This document shows positions 516 through 17,904 of a stretch of DNA of 54,838 nt, piece by piece. Numbering within the stretch: position 1 is the first letter of the stretch; every line of letters starts with the position of its first letter. The notes beneath the pieces are model-generated. The model was not told the DNA's origin. It ran no database searches and was given only the letters and a program-made list of their open reading frames with translations. The stretch is taken from positions 1 to 54,838 of the IMG/VR virus record IMGVR_UViG_3300032285_003295, one strand, 5' to 3'. Source of the DNA: a virus. Made by a program: the position numbers and the translations under genes.

Positions 516-1070
516 ATGGCAGGATTATCACATTATCAAAACTCACTTTCTGCGATAAACAAGTTTGAACCTGTTTATCTCAATCAGTTTGAGGTTACTA
601 TTTTACCACCAGCAGCAGTTGCAGGCGGTGAAATATTACTTCAGCACGTTACCAAAGTAAGTGGACTTTCTCTAGACAAAAACCCAGGCATTACAACTCA
701 GAAGTACAAATTTGCTAAAAGAAACTATGCCGGTGCTAAGCCAGAGAATACCTATATGGATTTGAATTTAAGTTTCACAGTCAACCTGAATGATGATAAT
801 TCAATGTATGTTTTTAAAACATTAAGACAGTGGAGTGACCTTATTTATAACCCTCTAACCGGTGCAATGGGATTGAAAAGGGATTACACAGGAACTATTG
901 TTATCTCTGTTTTTAACAAATCAGGAGATGTACACAGAAGAGTAACTTGTAGGGACACATACCCATCAAAGCCAATAAATGCCATGAATTTAAATTACGG
1001 ATCTACCGATATTTTTAAAATCAATGACATGACTTGGGCGGTTGATTACTGGGAGGATCTATTCCTATAA
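516..1070 (+). CDS. Tail tube protein, paralogue A (gp19-like)
   Basis: Inner tail tube subunit, 184 residues. The protein has the N-terminal YLNQFEV strand, a central region ending in SFTVNLNDDNSM, the block QWSDLIYNPLTGAMG at about residues 108-122, and a C-terminal DYWEDLFL. These match the gp19 tube family, in which hexameric rings stack inside the sheath. It sits immediately after the sheath gene, as expected. A second copy of the same family follows at 1087, so one of the two may build a specialised ring or the two may mix in the tube. The start context is A-rich, with no clear Shine-Dalgarno sequence. Confidence 0.85.
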   Translation: MAGLSHYQNSLSAINKFEPVYLNQFEVTILPPAAVAGGEILLQHVTKVSGLSLDKNPGITTQKYKFAKRNYAGAKPENTYMDLNLSFTVNLNDDNSMYVFKTLRQWSDLIYNPLTGAMGLKRDYTGTIVISVFNKSGDVHRRVTCRDTYPSKPINAMNLNYGSTDIFKINDMTWAVDYWEDLFL

Positions 1071-10227: not shown

Positions 10228-10268
10228 AATATATACTAAAAAGTTTCCGTCTCTATTCGGATATATAA
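10228..10268 (+). promoter_or_regulatory. Two late promoter-like elements
   Basis: AATATATAC ends at 10236, and GGATATATAA ends at 10268. The second one overlaps the in-frame ATG at 10268, which makes that codon an unlikely start and favours the ATG at 10292, 23 nt downstream. Confidence 0.55.
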
Positions 10269-10291: not shown

Positions 10292-12865
10292 ATGGACTTT
10301 ATAAACCAAGTTAAACAACTAAAAGAGCAAACTAAATCTCCTGAGGTTAGACAAATATGCGAAAACTACCTTAATGGTGGAAGCAATGCTTCTAAAGAAG
10401 CTATTACAGATGCAATCAATGAGCATTTTTCTAAGGCTCCTGAGAGTTTGAATGTCCAGAACTACAGGGACGTTATTAAAAATGAAGAGATGCAAACAGC
10501 TAAAAGAATGGCTGATTCTTTAATGGAATCATGGGGTTCTACCTCAAAGTCTTCTTTGAATAACTCAGGCTCGTACATTTCTAATGTGAATGATGACAAT
10601 GCTCAAAGAATGTTAACTGAAAGCATGGAGAGTCTTTCTAACGAGGATCCTACAGCAAAAGCTTTCGTTGAAGCTCAGGGTTTAAATAATATGGGTGTAA
10701 TGGAAGCAATTTCAACAATTAGAAATTCTTCTATCTACGATCATCCTGGTGTTAAAATAGTTTGTGAAAAATACGCTGGACTTATACAGGCTAAGAGAGT
10801 CCCAGAATTTTCTTTGATCAATAATTTCGTAGCAGAGACTGCACCTTTCAAATGGGATACTACCATCGGATCTGTTGTAGAAGAGCTTAGCGAGAAAGCA
10901 AGTAAATATTCTAGAGAAATAGAAGTTTCTATAGTTTTAGAAAGAATCAAATCTAGTGGAAGCTATGGATTCTATTCAGAGCTTACAGAGTCATTAAACT
11001 CTTGGTTAGTTTCTGAAAACAGATCATCTGGTCTTTTAGCTAAAAATATATCTAAATGGTCTTTTAATCCGGTTGTTAGAAATCTAATTAACTACTTAAA
11101 TGTTAACGAGGCTAAATCTACTAATAAATTAGAAATCCCTATGAATGCTCAGGGAGAATCTACTGTTTCTAGAGTATACTCTCCAGTATTGGTAGAAAGT
11201 GAAAGAACACTATTCGCTATAGGTTCAACAATATTTGAGATGACAGAAGATACTTTTGAAAAAGTTTCTCCTAAGTCTTTTTCTAAAATTCCTGCTGATT
11301 ATTTACAACTTGTTTCTATAGCAAATGATAAATCTGTTAAAATCAACGAAAGCGGAATATCGGTTAGATTCGGTAAAAAATCAGTTAGATTGATAGAAGA
11401 AAACTCAGATATTTCAGTTTATTTGGATAGATCTAAATTGAAATTCAGATCTCTTGGCGAATTAGGAAAATTGCTAAGCTTAGAAACAGGATCTTATCTA
11501 GGAGTTAATGAGAGTCAAACTATAAACAATATTATCTCTCTTTACAGAGGATATAACGATATTGTAGAATTAGATTTTGCTAAATCTATAACTTCTAACA
11601 TCTATGAGGGATTAGGAATTAATCTTATCAAAGCTAACGGTAAAATATATTTACACCGTATAAATGAGGCAATGAGAGAAAATTCTCTATTCCAAGTTAA
11701 TGGAACACAGGCTGTTAAAGCTGTTAAGGATGTACTAAGATATGACATATCTGAAGGATTAACTGAATTCTTAGAAGGCGAGCAAAAGGTTAAATCTGTA
11801 ATGGTAAACGATAGAACTAAAGTTCTTGAAAACATTTCAAAGGTTGAATCCGAAATTAACAAATTGGAGACATTAATGGAAAGCAATCCTCTTTACTCTA
11901 ATTCTAAAGAGATAAAATCAGCTCACTCCCTTTTGAATAACGAACTATCAGTTCTTAAAGAAAAATGGAATCAAATAAATCTAGAATTATCTAAGATAGA
12001 ATCTGAGCCTCAGGCAGAAGCGGATCTTTTAGAGGATAGCGCATTTAATATCGGATCTTATATCAAAGTAAAGGAATCGGGTGAAACTGGAAAGATCATA
12101 TCTGTAGATGGAACATCTGGAAGATACACAGTTCTTTTAGATAACGGAAAAACCACAGATTTATTGGTTAATGAAATAGTTGATCTAGAGCAGGCTTTAA
12201 ATCAAGCATCTGAGGAAAATCCAGAAACGAATGATGCAGATGAAGACGGTCAAGAAGAAATGAAGGAGTCTAACAATTTCAATAAGTCAAATTTAAAAAT
12301 ATCAGAGCAAAAGAAAATATTAAAAACACTTGCTACAAATCATGGATTTGCAAAAGCACCAGGAGAGAATAAAGACGAAATAGAAATGGGAATGGATAGC
12401 GTTCATGGCTACAACATTACAATGAATGAAGCTAAAGCAAAGGCAGAAAAACCAGTCTTAGCTAAAGCACCTGGGGATAGCAAACTTAATAAAGGTAAAG
12501 AGGGTAATCCAAAAGGATCATTAGAAACTGCTCCTGGAAATGATAAAATGGCTAAAGGAAAAGTAGCGGGAGCGAAAGATCTAGAAGAAGCTCCTGGGGC
12601 TAAAGGAAAAACAGACTTTGATGGACACGATGGAGCTGAAAATGGATATGAAATAGGATACAACCTAAGAGAGCAAGAGAATGGCAAATTAGCAGAAGCA
12701 CCAGAAAACGGGAAGGGAGCTAAAGAAACTAAATCAACATCATCAGCATTAGTATCTAAACAAAATTTAGCTAAAGCACCCGGTAAAGGTAAAGAAGTTG
12801 ATTTTGAAGCTAATGATGACAATGGATATAATTTGGCCGAATCTGAGGATTTAAAAAAAAACTAA
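10292..12865 (+). CDS. Large putative virion protein with APG-repeat tail
   Basis: A protein of about 857 residues from the ATG at 10292. The upstream in-frame ATG at 10268 lies inside a late promoter-like element. The first 600 residues are helical and contain many (L/I/M)xE triplets, the recognition type of T4-like prohead proteases, for example near residues 10-12. A KOW-like beta segment (SYIKVKESGETGKIISVDG) lies near residues 590-608. The last 180 residues are low complexity, with repeated (K/E)APG-x-x-K blocks. The frame stops right after the slippery AAAAAAC at 12856-12862, and the APG blocks continue in the -1 frame. It is probably a head or inner-virion component; no named family. 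Confidence 0.6.
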   Translation: MDFINQVKQLKEQTKSPEVRQICENYLNGGSNASKEAITDAINEHFSKAPESLNVQNYRDVIKNEEMQTAKRMADSLMESWGSTSKSSLNNSGSYISNVNDDNAQRMLTESMESLSNEDPTAKAFVEAQGLNNMGVMEAISTIRNSSIYDHPGVKIVCEKYAGLIQAKRVPEFSLINNFVAETAPFKWDTTIGSVVEELSEKASKYSREIEVSIVLERIKSSGSYGFYSELTESLNSWLVSENRSSGLLAKNISKWSFNPVVRNLINYLNVNEAKSTNKLEIPMNAQGESTVSRVYSPVLVESERTLFAIGSTIFEMTEDTFEKVSPKSFSKIPADYLQLVSIANDKSVKINESGISVRFGKKSVRLIEENSDISVYLDRSKLKFRSLGELGKLLSLETGSYLGVNESQTINNIISLYRGYNDIVELDFAKSITSNIYEGLGINLIKANGKIYLHRINEAMRENSLFQVNGTQAVKAVKDVLRYDISEGLTEFLEGEQKVKSVMVNDRTKVLENISKVESEINKLETLMESNPLYSNSKEIKSAHSLLNNELSVLKEKWNQINLELSKIESEPQAEADLLEDSAFNIGSYIKVKESGETGKIISVDGTSGRYTVLLDNGKTTDLLVNEIVDLEQALNQASEENPETNDADEDGQEEMKESNNFNKSNLKISEQKKILKTLATNHGFAKAPGENKDEIEMGMDSVHGYNITMNEAKAKAEKPVLAKAPGDSKLNKGKEGNPKGSLETAPGNDKMAKGKVAGAKDLEEAPGAKGKTDFDGHDGAENGYEIGYNLREQENGKLAEAPENGKGAKETKSTSSALVSKQNLAKAPGKGKEVDFEANDDNGYNLAESEDLKKN
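12856..12862 (+). other. -1 frameshift heptamer A AAA AAC
   Basis: The zero-frame codons are TTA AAA AAA AAC TAA, so A-AAA-AAC is in the correct register for tandem -1 slippage and the stop codon follows at once. It lies in a run of nine A residues. The small hairpin CTTTG/CAAAG at 12879-12891 is farther away than the usual stimulator. The -1 frame stays open to 13023 and continues the APG repeats. Transcriptional slippage or a homopolymer length error would give the same picture. Confidence 0.65.
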
Positions 12866-13023
12866 GTCGTAACTTTTACTTTGCACCAAAGGGTGAAAAT
12901 CAAAATGCGCCAGGCAAAAAGTTCGTAGATTCTCTAGAGGGTAAACTTAGTAAAGCCCCTACAGGTAAAGAAAATAAACCTGAAGATACAGAGGATTCAG
13001 AAGGACACGAAGATTCTAAATAA
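12862..13023 (+). CDS. -1 frame extension of the APG-repeat protein
   Basis: About 53 codons in the -1 frame, without a usable start codon of their own. The translation contains FAPKGEN, NAPGKK and KAPTGKEN, which are further copies of the APG blocks of the upstream gene, and ends in a very acidic tail (EDTEDSEGHEDSK). Continuity of the repeat argues that this is real coding sequence joined to the upstream frame by frameshifting, transcript slippage or an uncorrected homopolymer indel. A terminator follows shortly after the stop. Confidence 0.6.
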   Translation, partial: LSRNFYFAPKGENQNAPGKKFVDSLEGKLSKAPTGKENKPEDTEDSEGHEDSK

Positions 13024-13039
13024 TAGCATCATAAAATAT

Positions 13040-13071
13040 AAAGAGAACACAAATTAAGTGTTCTCTTTTTT
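13040..13071 (+). terminator. Intrinsic terminator
   Basis: The 11-bp stem AAAGAGAACAC/GTGTTCTCTTT with a 7-nt loop is followed by a T run. It ends the late transcript before the gp55 operon. Confidence 0.85.
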
Positions 13072-13072
13072 A

Positions 13073-13978: not shown

Positions 13979-14586
13979 AAAAGTACTCTGAATCTGTTTT
14001 AGAATATAAAAATAGTTTTAAAAATACTGCTGACCTAGTTTCTAATACAGATAAAATATTTAAGGAAAAGTACTTCCCACAGGGATCTTCTAATAAAAAA
14101 TTTACCCCTCCGTTCATACCCGGACAAATCTACTCGTTCTACTACAGCACCGAATCTAAATTAGGAAAGGATCGACTTTTTATAAATAGAAATCCTATAG
14201 TTCTTTGCACGGATGTTTTTAAAAACCAAGATTCAGGGACAATTTTAAAGGGGATAGACATAATAACTATACCTCCCGCATATAGAGTTCAGATAATAGC
14301 TAAGATTTTTGATAGCTTCTCTAATACAATAGAGAAAAACGATACATCCTATGATAAAGGAGGAAAAATAGAACCTATATTGCTGAAAGATCAATTTCTG
14401 GAGAGAGCTTTAGCTGGAACTGGGTATAAGAAATCCCTTTTTGGATTTAAAGCTATTTTTATGGAAAAAATAAAGATTCTGGATCTAGAGGATTGGTATA
14501 AACTACCATATCTAAAAGAGTCCTTGATAGAGGGCTTAGATCAGGAGGGGATATATAAGGAATACAAGTCGAAATTAATCGCCTAG
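13975..14586 (+). CDS. Conserved phage structural-type protein
   Basis: A 203-residue protein, translationally coupled to the gp4-like gene by ATGA. It contains FIPGQIYSFYYSTESK, then NPIVLCTDVF, then GIDIITIPPAYRVQII. This arrangement recalls a family of small T4-like virion proteins with a GxxYxFxY strand and a following NP-hydrophobic strand. Its position between head completion and portal genes suggests a role in head or neck assembly. No precise homologue can be named from sequence alone. Confidence 0.5.
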   Translation: MKKYSESVLEYKNSFKNTADLVSNTDKIFKEKYFPQGSSNKKFTPPFIPGQIYSFYYSTESKLGKDRLFINRNPIVLCTDVFKNQDSGTILKGIDIITIPPAYRVQIIAKIFDSFSNTIEKNDTSYDKGGKIEPILLKDQFLERALAGTGYKKSLFGFKAIFMEKIKILDLEDWYKLPYLKESLIEGLDQEGIYKEYKSKLIA

Positions 14587-14616: not shown

Positions 14617-16227
14617 ATGGCAGGTTTTACAGATAGTACCCCGTCGGGTTCACCGGTAGTTCAGAGAATCAGAGATTCCCTGAAAAAACTGAGCACATTC
14701 GGGATGAAGTATGATGACATGGTTATCAGAAACTCTCAGGCTGTGGGTGTATCTGAAGCTGCTTTTTTGAATAAGAATAAATCGAATGTTGAGGACGAGA
14801 CGATGCTTTGGACCCTAGCCAAGCAGGACATCACCACTAAACAATTCATATCTTATTTTGATAAAGATTACAAGGGAAAAAGAGATTACCTTAGGAAATT
14901 CTCACTAAATCCAGAGGTTGAATGGGTTCTTGATACAATCTGCGATGAATCTATTTCGTATGATCCGTCTAATTTCTTTGCTTATCCTGATTTCCTTGAC
15001 CTAACTGATATTAACGAGAAGGTTAAAGACGAGCTTTATGATATCTATAAAAAGCTATATGATATTTGGGGCTTCTGTGACGATATCACTGCATGGCAAT
15101 ACTTCCGCCAGCTCTTGGTTGATGGATTTCTTTGTTTTGAGATCATATACGATAACACAGGAAAGGAAATAATAGGATTCAAGGAATTGGATCCTGTTAC
15201 AATAATACCTAGCGTTGAAAAGCAAGTAGATGGGTCTTTTTTAAACACATGGATGCAATTCCCCCAAGATCCTAAAAGAAGAAGAATTCTTTATGATCCA
15301 CAAGTAATCTATATTTCTTATGCTAAGGGTAATGCCATATCAAGAGTAAGCTATGTTGAGAGATTAATTAGACCTTATAATATACTTAGAATAATCGAGC
15401 ACACTAGGGTTATTTGGTCCGTAATGAATGCTTCCTTTAGGTTAAAGATGACCGTTCCTATAGGAACTAAATCCCAGCAGAAAGGGATGCAGACGCTTGG
15501 AGAGCTTATGAGTGTGTACAAGGAGGATATGCAACTTAATGATGACACTGGTGAACTCCTTGTAGATGGAAGACCCAAAATTCAATTTTACAAGAACTAT
15601 CTAATGCCTTCCGGTGTTAATGGTACCCCTAGAATAGAGCCTATAACCAATGAAGGACCAAATCTGAATGACACTACCCCTTTAAATTACTTCTTCGATA
15701 AATTTGTTCAGGAATCAAAAGTACCTTCCTCTAGATTCCATGGACCTGATGGCGGAACATCATCCACATATGCTAATGCTGCAGAGGGATTAGATAAAGA
15801 AGAGATTAGATTTTTTAAATTTATATCTAGGCTTAGATCTCTATTTCAAGAGATCCTAACTAAGCCTATGTGGATTCAGATGGTTAAGAAATATCCAAAT
15901 CTGGAAAAAGACTTTATGTTTAAAAGCCAACTTGGTCTTGATTATTTTTCAGATAATCCATTCCGTGTTAATCAGGAGATGGATATTATAAACAAAAGAA
16001 AAGAATCGGTTACCTCTATGCAAGCATTAGTTGGTGATGACGAAAAACCTTTTTTCTCTACTGCTTTTCTTATTGAAAATTTTCTAGGTCTTTCTAATCA
16101 GGATATACAGGCAAACAAAGAAGCAATTAAGAGGAAGGAAGAAGAAAAGAAAAAGGAAGAAAAGAAAGCAGGTAAAGAAGGTGGTGAAGAAGGAGGAGAA
16201 GCAGCAGGGGGAGGAGTAACATTATAA
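14617..16227 (+). CDS. Portal protein, paralogue A (gp20-like)
   Basis: A 536-residue portal vertex protein, the likely subunit of the dodecameric DNA entry ring. The gp20 signatures are YLRKFSLNPEVEWVLDTICDE near residue 90, LVDGFLCFEIIYD near residue 167, YISYAKGNAISRVSYVERLIRPYNILRIIE near residues 230-260, and RVIWSVMNASFRLKM. The C-terminal 40 residues are a Lys/Glu-rich helix ending in GGEAAGGG. T4 gp20 has about 524 residues. A second portal gene follows after 9 nt. Both copies keep the core motifs, so neither looks like a pseudogene. Confidence 0.88.
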   Translation: MAGFTDSTPSGSPVVQRIRDSLKKLSTFGMKYDDMVIRNSQAVGVSEAAFLNKNKSNVEDETMLWTLAKQDITTKQFISYFDKDYKGKRDYLRKFSLNPEVEWVLDTICDESISYDPSNFFAYPDFLDLTDINEKVKDELYDIYKKLYDIWGFCDDITAWQYFRQLLVDGFLCFEIIYDNTGKEIIGFKELDPVTIIPSVEKQVDGSFLNTWMQFPQDPKRRRILYDPQVIYISYAKGNAISRVSYVERLIRPYNILRIIEHTRVIWSVMNASFRLKMTVPIGTKSQQKGMQTLGELMSVYKEDMQLNDDTGELLVDGRPKIQFYKNYLMPSGVNGTPRIEPITNEGPNLNDTTPLNYFFDKFVQESKVPSSRFHGPDGGTSSTYANAAEGLDKEEIRFFKFISRLRSLFQEILTKPMWIQMVKKYPNLEKDFMFKSQLGLDYFSDNPFRVNQEMDIINKRKESVTSMQALVGDDEKPFFSTAFLIENFLGLSNQDIQANKEAIKRKEEEKKKEEKKAGKEGGEEGGEAAGGGVTL

Positions 16228-16236
16228 AAATTAAAA

Positions 16237-17904
16237 ATGGCAGGATTTTTAGACGCATTTAAACCAAACCAGTCCGCTCTTGGAAACATAATCCGGAATA
16301 TTGGAAAAATTTCTAAGTTTGGGATGGAATATGATGATATGGTTGTGAGAAACTCACAAGCAATCGGAAAAACAGAATCTGCTTTTTTTAATCAGCAAGG
16401 AACTGGCTTTACTGAGAATGATGCTTTCTACTGGACTCTTTCATATCAAGACACTAGGGTTAGAAAATACATTGCATACTTTGATAAAGACTATATAGAG
16501 AAAAGAAACTTTCTAAGAAAGTTTTCCCTTAATGGTGAAATAGAATTTATACTAGATACCATAACTGATGAATGTATCTCTTATAACGATAGAAACTTCT
16601 TTGCCACACCTTCTTTTGCCAACCTTAATGATATAAAGGATAAAGTTAAAAACAAAATTACGGACCACTATAATCGTTTATATAACGTCTTTGGATTTCA
16701 GAATGGTGTTTTAGCTTGGCAGTTTTTCAAGCAGTTTTTAGTTGATGGATTTCTTTGCTTTGAGATAATATACGATAACAAGGGTAAGGAGATTATAGGT
16801 TTTAAAGAGCTAGATCCAACCTCAGTGCAACCTGCCGTTGAAAAAATCAGCGAGAGCGAATATGCACAATTTTGGATTCAATATCCAAAGAATCCCCAGA
16901 TGACACGAAAGCTTACCAACGAGCAGATTGTCTATATTTCTTATGCTAAGGGTAATTCAATATCAAGAGTAAGCTACCTGGAAAGACTGGTTAGGTCTTA
17001 TAACATTCTAAGAATAATGGAGAACTCCAGAGTTATTTGGAATGTGATGAATGCCTCTTATAGGCTTAAATTTGTTATTCCAACCGGTAGTCAATCCCAA
17101 CAAAAAGCTTTGCAAACGTTGGGACAATTGATGTCTAATTATAAGGAGGAATATTCACTTAATGATAATTCGGGAGAATTAACGGTTAACGGTAAACCTA
17201 AAGTCCAATTCTATAAAAATTATCTCTTTCCAGAACAAAACGGACAAGCTCCTGATATATCATCTCTAAATCCTGCAGGTCCTGACTTCAATGTAATGGA
17301 CAACGTTCTTTACTTCTTCAATAAATTGAAGATGGATTCTAAAATACCTTATGCTAGATTTGCTTCAAGAGGATCAACTCCTGTAAACTATCAAGCAGGG
17401 ATAGATGCATTAGAAAGAGATGAGGTTAGATTTGAAAAATTCTTAAGAAGACTGAGATCTGTTTTTCAGGAAATCTTAGTTAAACCACTCTATATACAAA
17501 TGTGTTTAGATTTCCCTGAGCTTTCTAAAGATAGAGCATTCAAGGCAAATCTTGGTCTTAATTTCCATAAAGACAGTGAACTTGAGTCTATGATAGAGCT
17601 TGCGAATTATAAAAAGAGAGGAGAATTTATAGCGGGTCTCTTGGAGCTAAAGGTTAAAGTTGGGGAGGAAGAGAAATCTTATTTTGACAATAATTTTTTA
17701 ATTCAGAGATATCTTGGTCTAAATCCAGAACAGACCAGAATTAACGAGGAGTACAAGAAAAGAGAGGCAAAAGAAGCTGAAAAGGCTGGTGCAGCTGGTG
17801 GGGAAGCAGCCGCTGGTGGAGAATCAGCTGCGGGCGGAGAAGCAGCTCCTGCCGCAGGAGAAGCAGCTGCTGGGGGTGGAACAGAAGAAGCTCCTGCCGT
17901 ATAA
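16237..17904 (+). CDS. Portal protein, paralogue B (gp20-like)
   Basis: A 555-residue homologue of the upstream portal protein that retains all core blocks (FLRKFSLNGEIEFILDTITDE, LVDGFLCFEIIYDN, YISYAKGNSISRVSYLERL, RVIWNVMNASYRLK). Some nucleotide blocks are nearly identical to paralogue A. The crown or barrel region and the C-terminus differ: this copy ends in about 45 residues of Ala/Gly/Glu repeats. Tandem portal genes are unusual, because the ring is normally a homododecamer. A mixed ring, two head types or a second-site function are possible; none can be read from sequence. Confidence 0.87.
   Translation: MAGFLDAFKPNQSALGNIIRNIGKISKFGMEYDDMVVRNSQAIGKTESAFFNQQGTGFTENDAFYWTLSYQDTRVRKYIAYFDKDYIEKRNFLRKFSLNGEIEFILDTITDECISYNDRNFFATPSFANLNDIKDKVKNKITDHYNRLYNVFGFQNGVLAWQFFKQFLVDGFLCFEIIYDNKGKEIIGFKELDPTSVQPAVEKISESEYAQFWIQYPKNPQMTRKLTNEQIVYISYAKGNSISRVSYLERLVRSYNILRIMENSRVIWNVMNASYRLKFVIPTGSQSQQKALQTLGQLMSNYKEEYSLNDNSGELTVNGKPKVQFYKNYLFPEQNGQAPDISSLNPAGPDFNVMDNVLYFFNKLKMDSKIPYARFASRGSTPVNYQAGIDALERDEVRFEKFLRRLRSVFQEILVKPLYIQMCLDFPELSKDRAFKANLGLNFHKDSELESMIELANYKKRGEFIAGLLELKVKVGEEEKSYFDNNFLIQRYLGLNPEQTRINEEYKKREAKEAEKAGAAGGEAAAGGESAAGGEAAPAAGEAAAGGGTEEAPAV

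Follow-up and report, generated by a model that had tools for sequence, protein, structure and literature searches.

The gene at positions 10292 to 12865 of the window (the whole stretch of viral DNA analysed here, IMG/VR record IMGVR_UViG_3300032285_003295, 54,838 nucleotides) very probably makes two proteins, a short form of 857 amino acids (94.5 kDa) and a long form of 910 amino acids (100.4 kDa), which carries a C-terminal extension encoded in the -1 frame. As the source of the two proteins we favour programmed -1 ribosomal frameshifting alone, to which we assign a probability of about 0.66. The gene lies on the plus strand, as do the promoter-like motif before it, its repeat tail, slip site, stop codon and extension, and the hairpin that follows.

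Slip site, extension and their conservation

The zero-frame ORF encodes the short form, which is composed of an ordered body and a disordered C-terminal tail of LAKAPG-x-K type repeat blocks (12346 to 12862), the length of which varies among relatives from 0 to 8 AP blocks. The longest ORF begins at 10268; however, the true start is probably the ATG at 10292, since relatives begin with MDFINQV and the earlier ATG shares nucleotides with a TATATAAT motif. The ORF ends with the codons TTA AAA AAA AAC TAA (12851 to 12865), in which a run of nine A (12853 to 12861), the slip site, provides two overlapping heptamers, A-AAA-AAA (12853 to 12859) and A-AAA-AAC (12856 to 12862). The latter is a slippery X-XXY-YYZ sequence in exact -1 register and is directly followed by the stop codon TAA (12863 to 12865), as an earlier sequence-only reading of this DNA had described; TAA or TAG is present at this position in nearly all relatives. 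The same reading had proposed a -1 frame that stays open for about 53 codons without a start codon, and the frame is indeed open from 12862 to 13020, comprises 53 codons and is closed by a TAA at 13021 to 13023, while the complete -1 ORF (12847 to 13023) contains no ATG, GTG, TTG, CTG or ATH codon. Lacking a start codon, the extension encoded at 12862 to 13023, LSRNFYFAPKGENQNAPGKKFVDSLEGKLSKAPTGKENKPEDTEDSEGHEDSK, will escape ordinary gene callers. Behind it lies a terminator-like hairpin of 11 pairs with a loop of 7 and a T run in its T-rich tail (13040 to 13072).

The extension was thought to continue the APG-x-K repeats of the upstream protein, which is true for one block, GKLSKAPTGK, but not for the remainder, which comprises a distinct FYFAPK...NQN motif, itself conserved, and an acidic terminus. 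Similarly, its proposed acidic character is confined to the last 19 residues (pI 4.3), whereas the extension as a whole, with 11 acidic and 9 basic residues, is only mildly acidic (pI 5.3). The 54.8 kb window contains one A9 run, counting either strand, compared to 9.4 expected from dinucleotide shuffles; such runs are therefore avoided elsewhere in the window. Furthermore, no other window ORF of at least 100 amino acids has an in-frame slippery heptamer at most 8 codons from its stop with 25 or more open codons behind it in the -1 frame.

Relatives were sought in IMG/VR with the protein, with its alignments and with the extension alone, and their sites were located via the protein or the extension, independently of the A run. 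They fall into clade A, whose members are 47-64% identical to the zero-frame protein of the window, and clade B, with about 30% identity; several of them are contigs of 200-434 kb. No homologue was confirmed in the bacterial and archaeal genomes of GTDB, and neither extension type was found in named phages. Of 56 distinct sites, 55 share a run of exactly nine A, the other having ten A, and two further relatives (L150 and L159) each add an A9 site, raising the count to 57 of 58. Eight or ten A in the window, which would make one continuous frame, or a -1 frame that relatives do not share had been named as results that would speak against a shift; the run is nine A long, and both the heptamer, as A-AAA-AA(C/G) or A-AAA-AAA, and the -1 frame are conserved. 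The extension lies in the -1 frame in 54 of the 58 distinct sites, and on the tree all four exceptions belong to one subclade: in L100-L104, it is joined in frame within one continuous ORF, and in L089-L091, it forms a separate ORF with its own ATG. L097 and L086, which belong to the same subclade, still require a -1 shift, via A-AAA-AAA. This subclade has converted the arrangement, either to an in-frame fusion or to a separate ORF.

The -1 frame is also under selection. When 33 clade A members are compared over the initial 36 codons of the extension, pN/pS amounts to 0.32 in the -1 frame, 1.15 in the zero frame and 1.53 in the +1 frame. Stop codons are absent from the -1 frame and frequent in the other two, and variability is highest at the third codon position. 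Purifying selection on the clade A extension is restricted to the -1 frame. The second, C-terminally extended form proposed by the sequence-only reading is thereby borne out as a prediction: the -1 transition is real, kept in most distinct sites and followed by a selected frame.

Behind the same site, clade B carries a different conserved extension of 80-86 amino acids. Homology of the two extension types was considered and rejected, the profiles, both of them shallow, being unrelated in a direct comparison. At its end, the clade B extension often overlaps the first codon of the late sigma gene, in the form TAATGG or TGATGG. Translation of the sigma gene would then be coupled to the long frame, and frameshifting could feed ribosomes to it.

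Slippage of the ribosome or of RNA polymerase

We infer a translational event of the following kind. Most ribosomes would read TTA AAA AAA AAC and terminate at the TAA, thereby producing the 857-residue protein with its disordered repeat tail. Some ribosomes, their P site occupied by Lys-tRNA and their A site by Asn- or Lys-tRNA, would move back a single base on the A run, continue with CTA AGT CGT and add 53 residues, which gives the 910-residue form. The long form, probably the minority of copies, would bring the conserved FYFAPK-NQN-SKAPTGK module and the acidic end to the particle or to an assembly intermediate.

A 3' RNA structure or a 5' Shine-Dalgarno-like element is usual, though not obligatory, for -1 programmed ribosomal frameshifting. 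In clade A, RNAalifold predicts no pairs 3' of the site and hence no conserved RNA structure, and no conserved Shine-Dalgarno-like stimulator was seen upstream of it. A hairpin of 13 pairs is present about 25 nucleotides 3' of the slip site in clade B (L050, L054, L109-L119, L122-L123), with 98% of cells paired, both sides changed in 3 pairs and a T run behind it in some members; however, it is too distant to be a classical stimulator and resembles a terminator within the coding sequence of the extension. The overlapping slippery heptamers together with the stop codon directly 3' would substitute for a stimulatory RNA structure.

The strongest competing explanation, which we regard as less likely, is programmed transcriptional slippage, in which RNA polymerase adds one A to the run (or drops two) in a share of the mRNAs and the long form is produced by ordinary translation. 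Avoidance of slippage-prone runs is common in bacterial genomes at a length of nine A, which is also the length used by Thermus dnaX and by IS genes (PMC1088944), and with exactly nine A in 57 of 58 sites, the run has the length of about nine or more A or T at which such slippage is expected. The codon before the two Lys codons has changed 11 times among TTA, CTA, GTA, TCA, ACA and GCA, as counted on a quick tree whose rows are not independent, and its final A was always kept; GTA was retained although it accounts for only 31% of Val codons. Comparable motifs elsewhere in the loci of relatives contain A9 in 0 of 46 cases, and the lack of a 3' stimulator in clade A would also suit the polymerase. 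That nine A rather than the seven of a heptamer were kept through these codon changes argues against the ribosomal view, and the invariant length can be explained by transcriptional slippage as well; yet the eighth and ninth A can also serve the ribosome as the second overlapping heptamer, A-AAA-AAA.

What transcriptional slippage leaves unexplained is the base that follows the run. This base is C or G in every member that needs the shift, with 6 C/G changes on the same quick tree of non-independent rows, and never T, which is found only in L089-L091, where no shift is required. A change from C to T would be silent in both frames (AAC and AAT encode Asn, CTA and TTA encode Leu) and would not run against codon usage, since AAT makes up 70% of the Asn codons, and TTA and CTA make up 39% and 15% of the Leu codons, respectively. 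The absence of T suggests, indirectly, that the codon in the A site matters and thus points to the ribosome. A-AAA-AAG and A-AAA-AAC are known -1 shift sites, the latter of which shifts more weakly in E. coli (PMC5009743). Slippage of the ribosome on A-AAA-AA(C/G) is therefore favoured over slippage of the polymerase, and the C-or-G rule and the exactly-nine-A rule make the choice between the two directly testable.

The long form could also be the sum of polymerase and ribosome slippage on one run, the site obeying the sequence rules of both; we consider this quite improbable, as no observation made here demands two mechanisms. A sequencing or assembly error, which the sequence-only reading had kept in view, or a decaying gene that recently went out of frame can be dismissed, even though homopolymers are error-prone and the zero-frame ORF of L002/L017 is broken well upstream of the slip site (open from 3710, match begins 2936), because register and run length are common to 54 distinct sequences from two clades and many metagenomes, with the same nine A in dozens of independent assemblies, and the -1 frame is selected. 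Equally negligible is the reading of the extension as a small gene of its own, started inside or upstream of the extension and never joined to the long protein: L089-L091 have an ATG for it and some clade B members an internal one, but the latter is not conserved, no start codon exists in the -1 ORF of the window or near the extension start of any clade A frameshift member, and L100-L104, in which the two parts are joined in frame, provide the joined product as a working protein sequence.

With programmed ribosomal frameshifting as the preferred reading, it is tempting to speculate further, albeit tentatively, that A9(C/G)-stop is an old, conserved recoding port at the end of the repeat tail, which works without an RNA stimulator, has unrelated C-terminal modules behind it (FYFAPK in clade A and a probably helical one in clade B) and may become, through small changes, an in-frame fusion or a separate gene. 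In Bacteroidota, the likely hosts, Shine-Dalgarno signals are hardly in use, and a stimulator-free site of this type might be suited to their phages.

Genome context and predicted role of the protein

The extension is followed by genes for a late sigma factor (13137), a head-closure protein gp4 (13496) and a protein that weakly matches DNA end protectors (13975), and by two consecutive gp20-like portal genes (14617 to 16227 and 16237 to 17904; Portal_T4, 2.4e-59 and 2.4e-67). A second portal-like protein is unusual in a T4-like phage; two portal-like ORFs are likewise present in L054. Another pair of consecutive genes in the window (516 to 1070 and 1087 to 1662) has its PHROG and tail tube family matches in common. 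The major head protein (31767) has its best named matches in phages of Prevotella, Tenacibaculum, Chryseobacterium, Flavobacterium and Sphingomonas, apart from uncultured huge phages, and 6 of 47 genes have a Shine-Dalgarno sequence, which is no bias over the background of 13%. Based on the neighbouring genes, the head protein matches and the lack of a Shine-Dalgarno bias, the phage is T4-like and of the Bacteroidota type, and its host is probably one of the Bacteroidota. These phages may be related to the 'moraphage' lineage of aquatic jumbo phages with Bacteroidota hosts, in the description of which the word 'frameshift' does not occur (PMC12619734).

A putative promoter-like motif, GGATATATAA, is located upstream of the gene (10259 to 10268) and is kept in the leaders of clade A relatives; an exact match is also found at 14549, upstream of a portal gene. 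Across the window, similar motifs with at most one mismatch occur 16 times compared to 8.7 expected, 15 of them on the plus strand. The motif is perhaps a late promoter. In the leaders of L020, L027, L028, L030, L044, L066, L098 and L100, TATATAAT is followed by A9-A10 directly before the start codon of the gene, which possibly reflects either an A-rich region for initiation or slippage as transcription begins.

The protein has no useful match in Pfam, PHROGs, or PDB by sequence or fold. AlphaFold predicts a body that is ordered to about residue 650 and a tail (residues 693-865 in the 865-amino acid numbering) with pLDDT below 50, at a mean pLDDT of 64.6 and a pTM of 0.36 overall. An SH3-like domain (MSSS) is weakly matched by 21 of 43 members. 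Moreover, the protein of L100/L101 (3517 to 6144) contains a peptidoglycan-binding domain (PF01471, 3.9e-13) inserted near its N-terminus, at about residues 122-172, as would be fitting for a virion protein in contact with the cell wall. The position of the gene in the genome, like the promoter-like motif, is consistent with its being a late structural gene, and we infer virion membership from the location among structural genes. The conserved, partly acidic extension forms the very end of the tail in the long form. Sites resembling those of a prohead protease (LxE and then A, G, S or N) occur three times in the repeat tail of the window protein compared to 1.0 expected (p 0.07), are about twofold enriched in many relatives and are absent from several, which is no more than suggestive.

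The closest counterparts lack the recoding module. LR756500.1 encodes a 25% identical homologue before a late-sigma-like gene, and ORF-242 of Tenacibaculum phage PTm1 is a structural match (BFVD, E 3.6e-15; the ORF was assigned by its length of 442 amino acids) followed by a gene that, judged by eye, resembles a late sigma factor; both are devoid of repeat tail, A9 site and extension. The genes that precede the end-protector and portal genes of PTm1 and pT24 are unrelated to the protein by profile search.

Relation to known recoded genes

C-terminal extensions of phage structural proteins that derive from frameshifting are already known (PMC5009743). In T7 and T3 (gp10A/10B), Lactobacillus phage A2 and the Listeria phages A118, A500 and PSA, a frameshift at the end of a structural gene likewise leads to a second, C-terminally extended form (PMC5009743). 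Two forms of one virion protein are thus not a new case beyond tail chaperones and capsids, as had been suggested, since the major tail protein of Listeria phages precedes it (PMC5009743). What was not found in open-licence full texts is the protein family itself, how widely it occurs in large Bacteroidota-type phages, the A9(C/G)-stop site that works without a stimulator and the pair of unrelated extensions that share this site.

In contrast to the frameshifted capsid and tail proteins, the present family has no detectable relation to capsid or tail tube and is a putative member of the virion; its site consists of A9(C/G) with the stop directly 3' and no conserved structure, and two unrelated extensions are found in two clades. 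It also differs from the tail assembly chaperones gpG/gpGT of phage Lambda (PMC5009743), as the protein has 857 amino acids and is not a small chaperone, and late sigma, gp4 and portal genes follow instead of a tape measure gene. The same type of A-run site is used by the dnaX genes of E. coli (A-AAA-AAG) and Thermus (A9, transcriptional), one for each level of slippage (PMC5009743, PMC1088944); however, slippage yields a shorter product in both dnaX genes and a longer one here, and clade A has no hairpin just 3' of the site. The relatives, with frameshift, in-frame fusion, separate gene and two unrelated extensions, constitute a natural series for probing the purpose of the long form. Taken together, a widespread, previously undescribed gene family would join the few genes of phage structural regions that are recoded into two protein forms.
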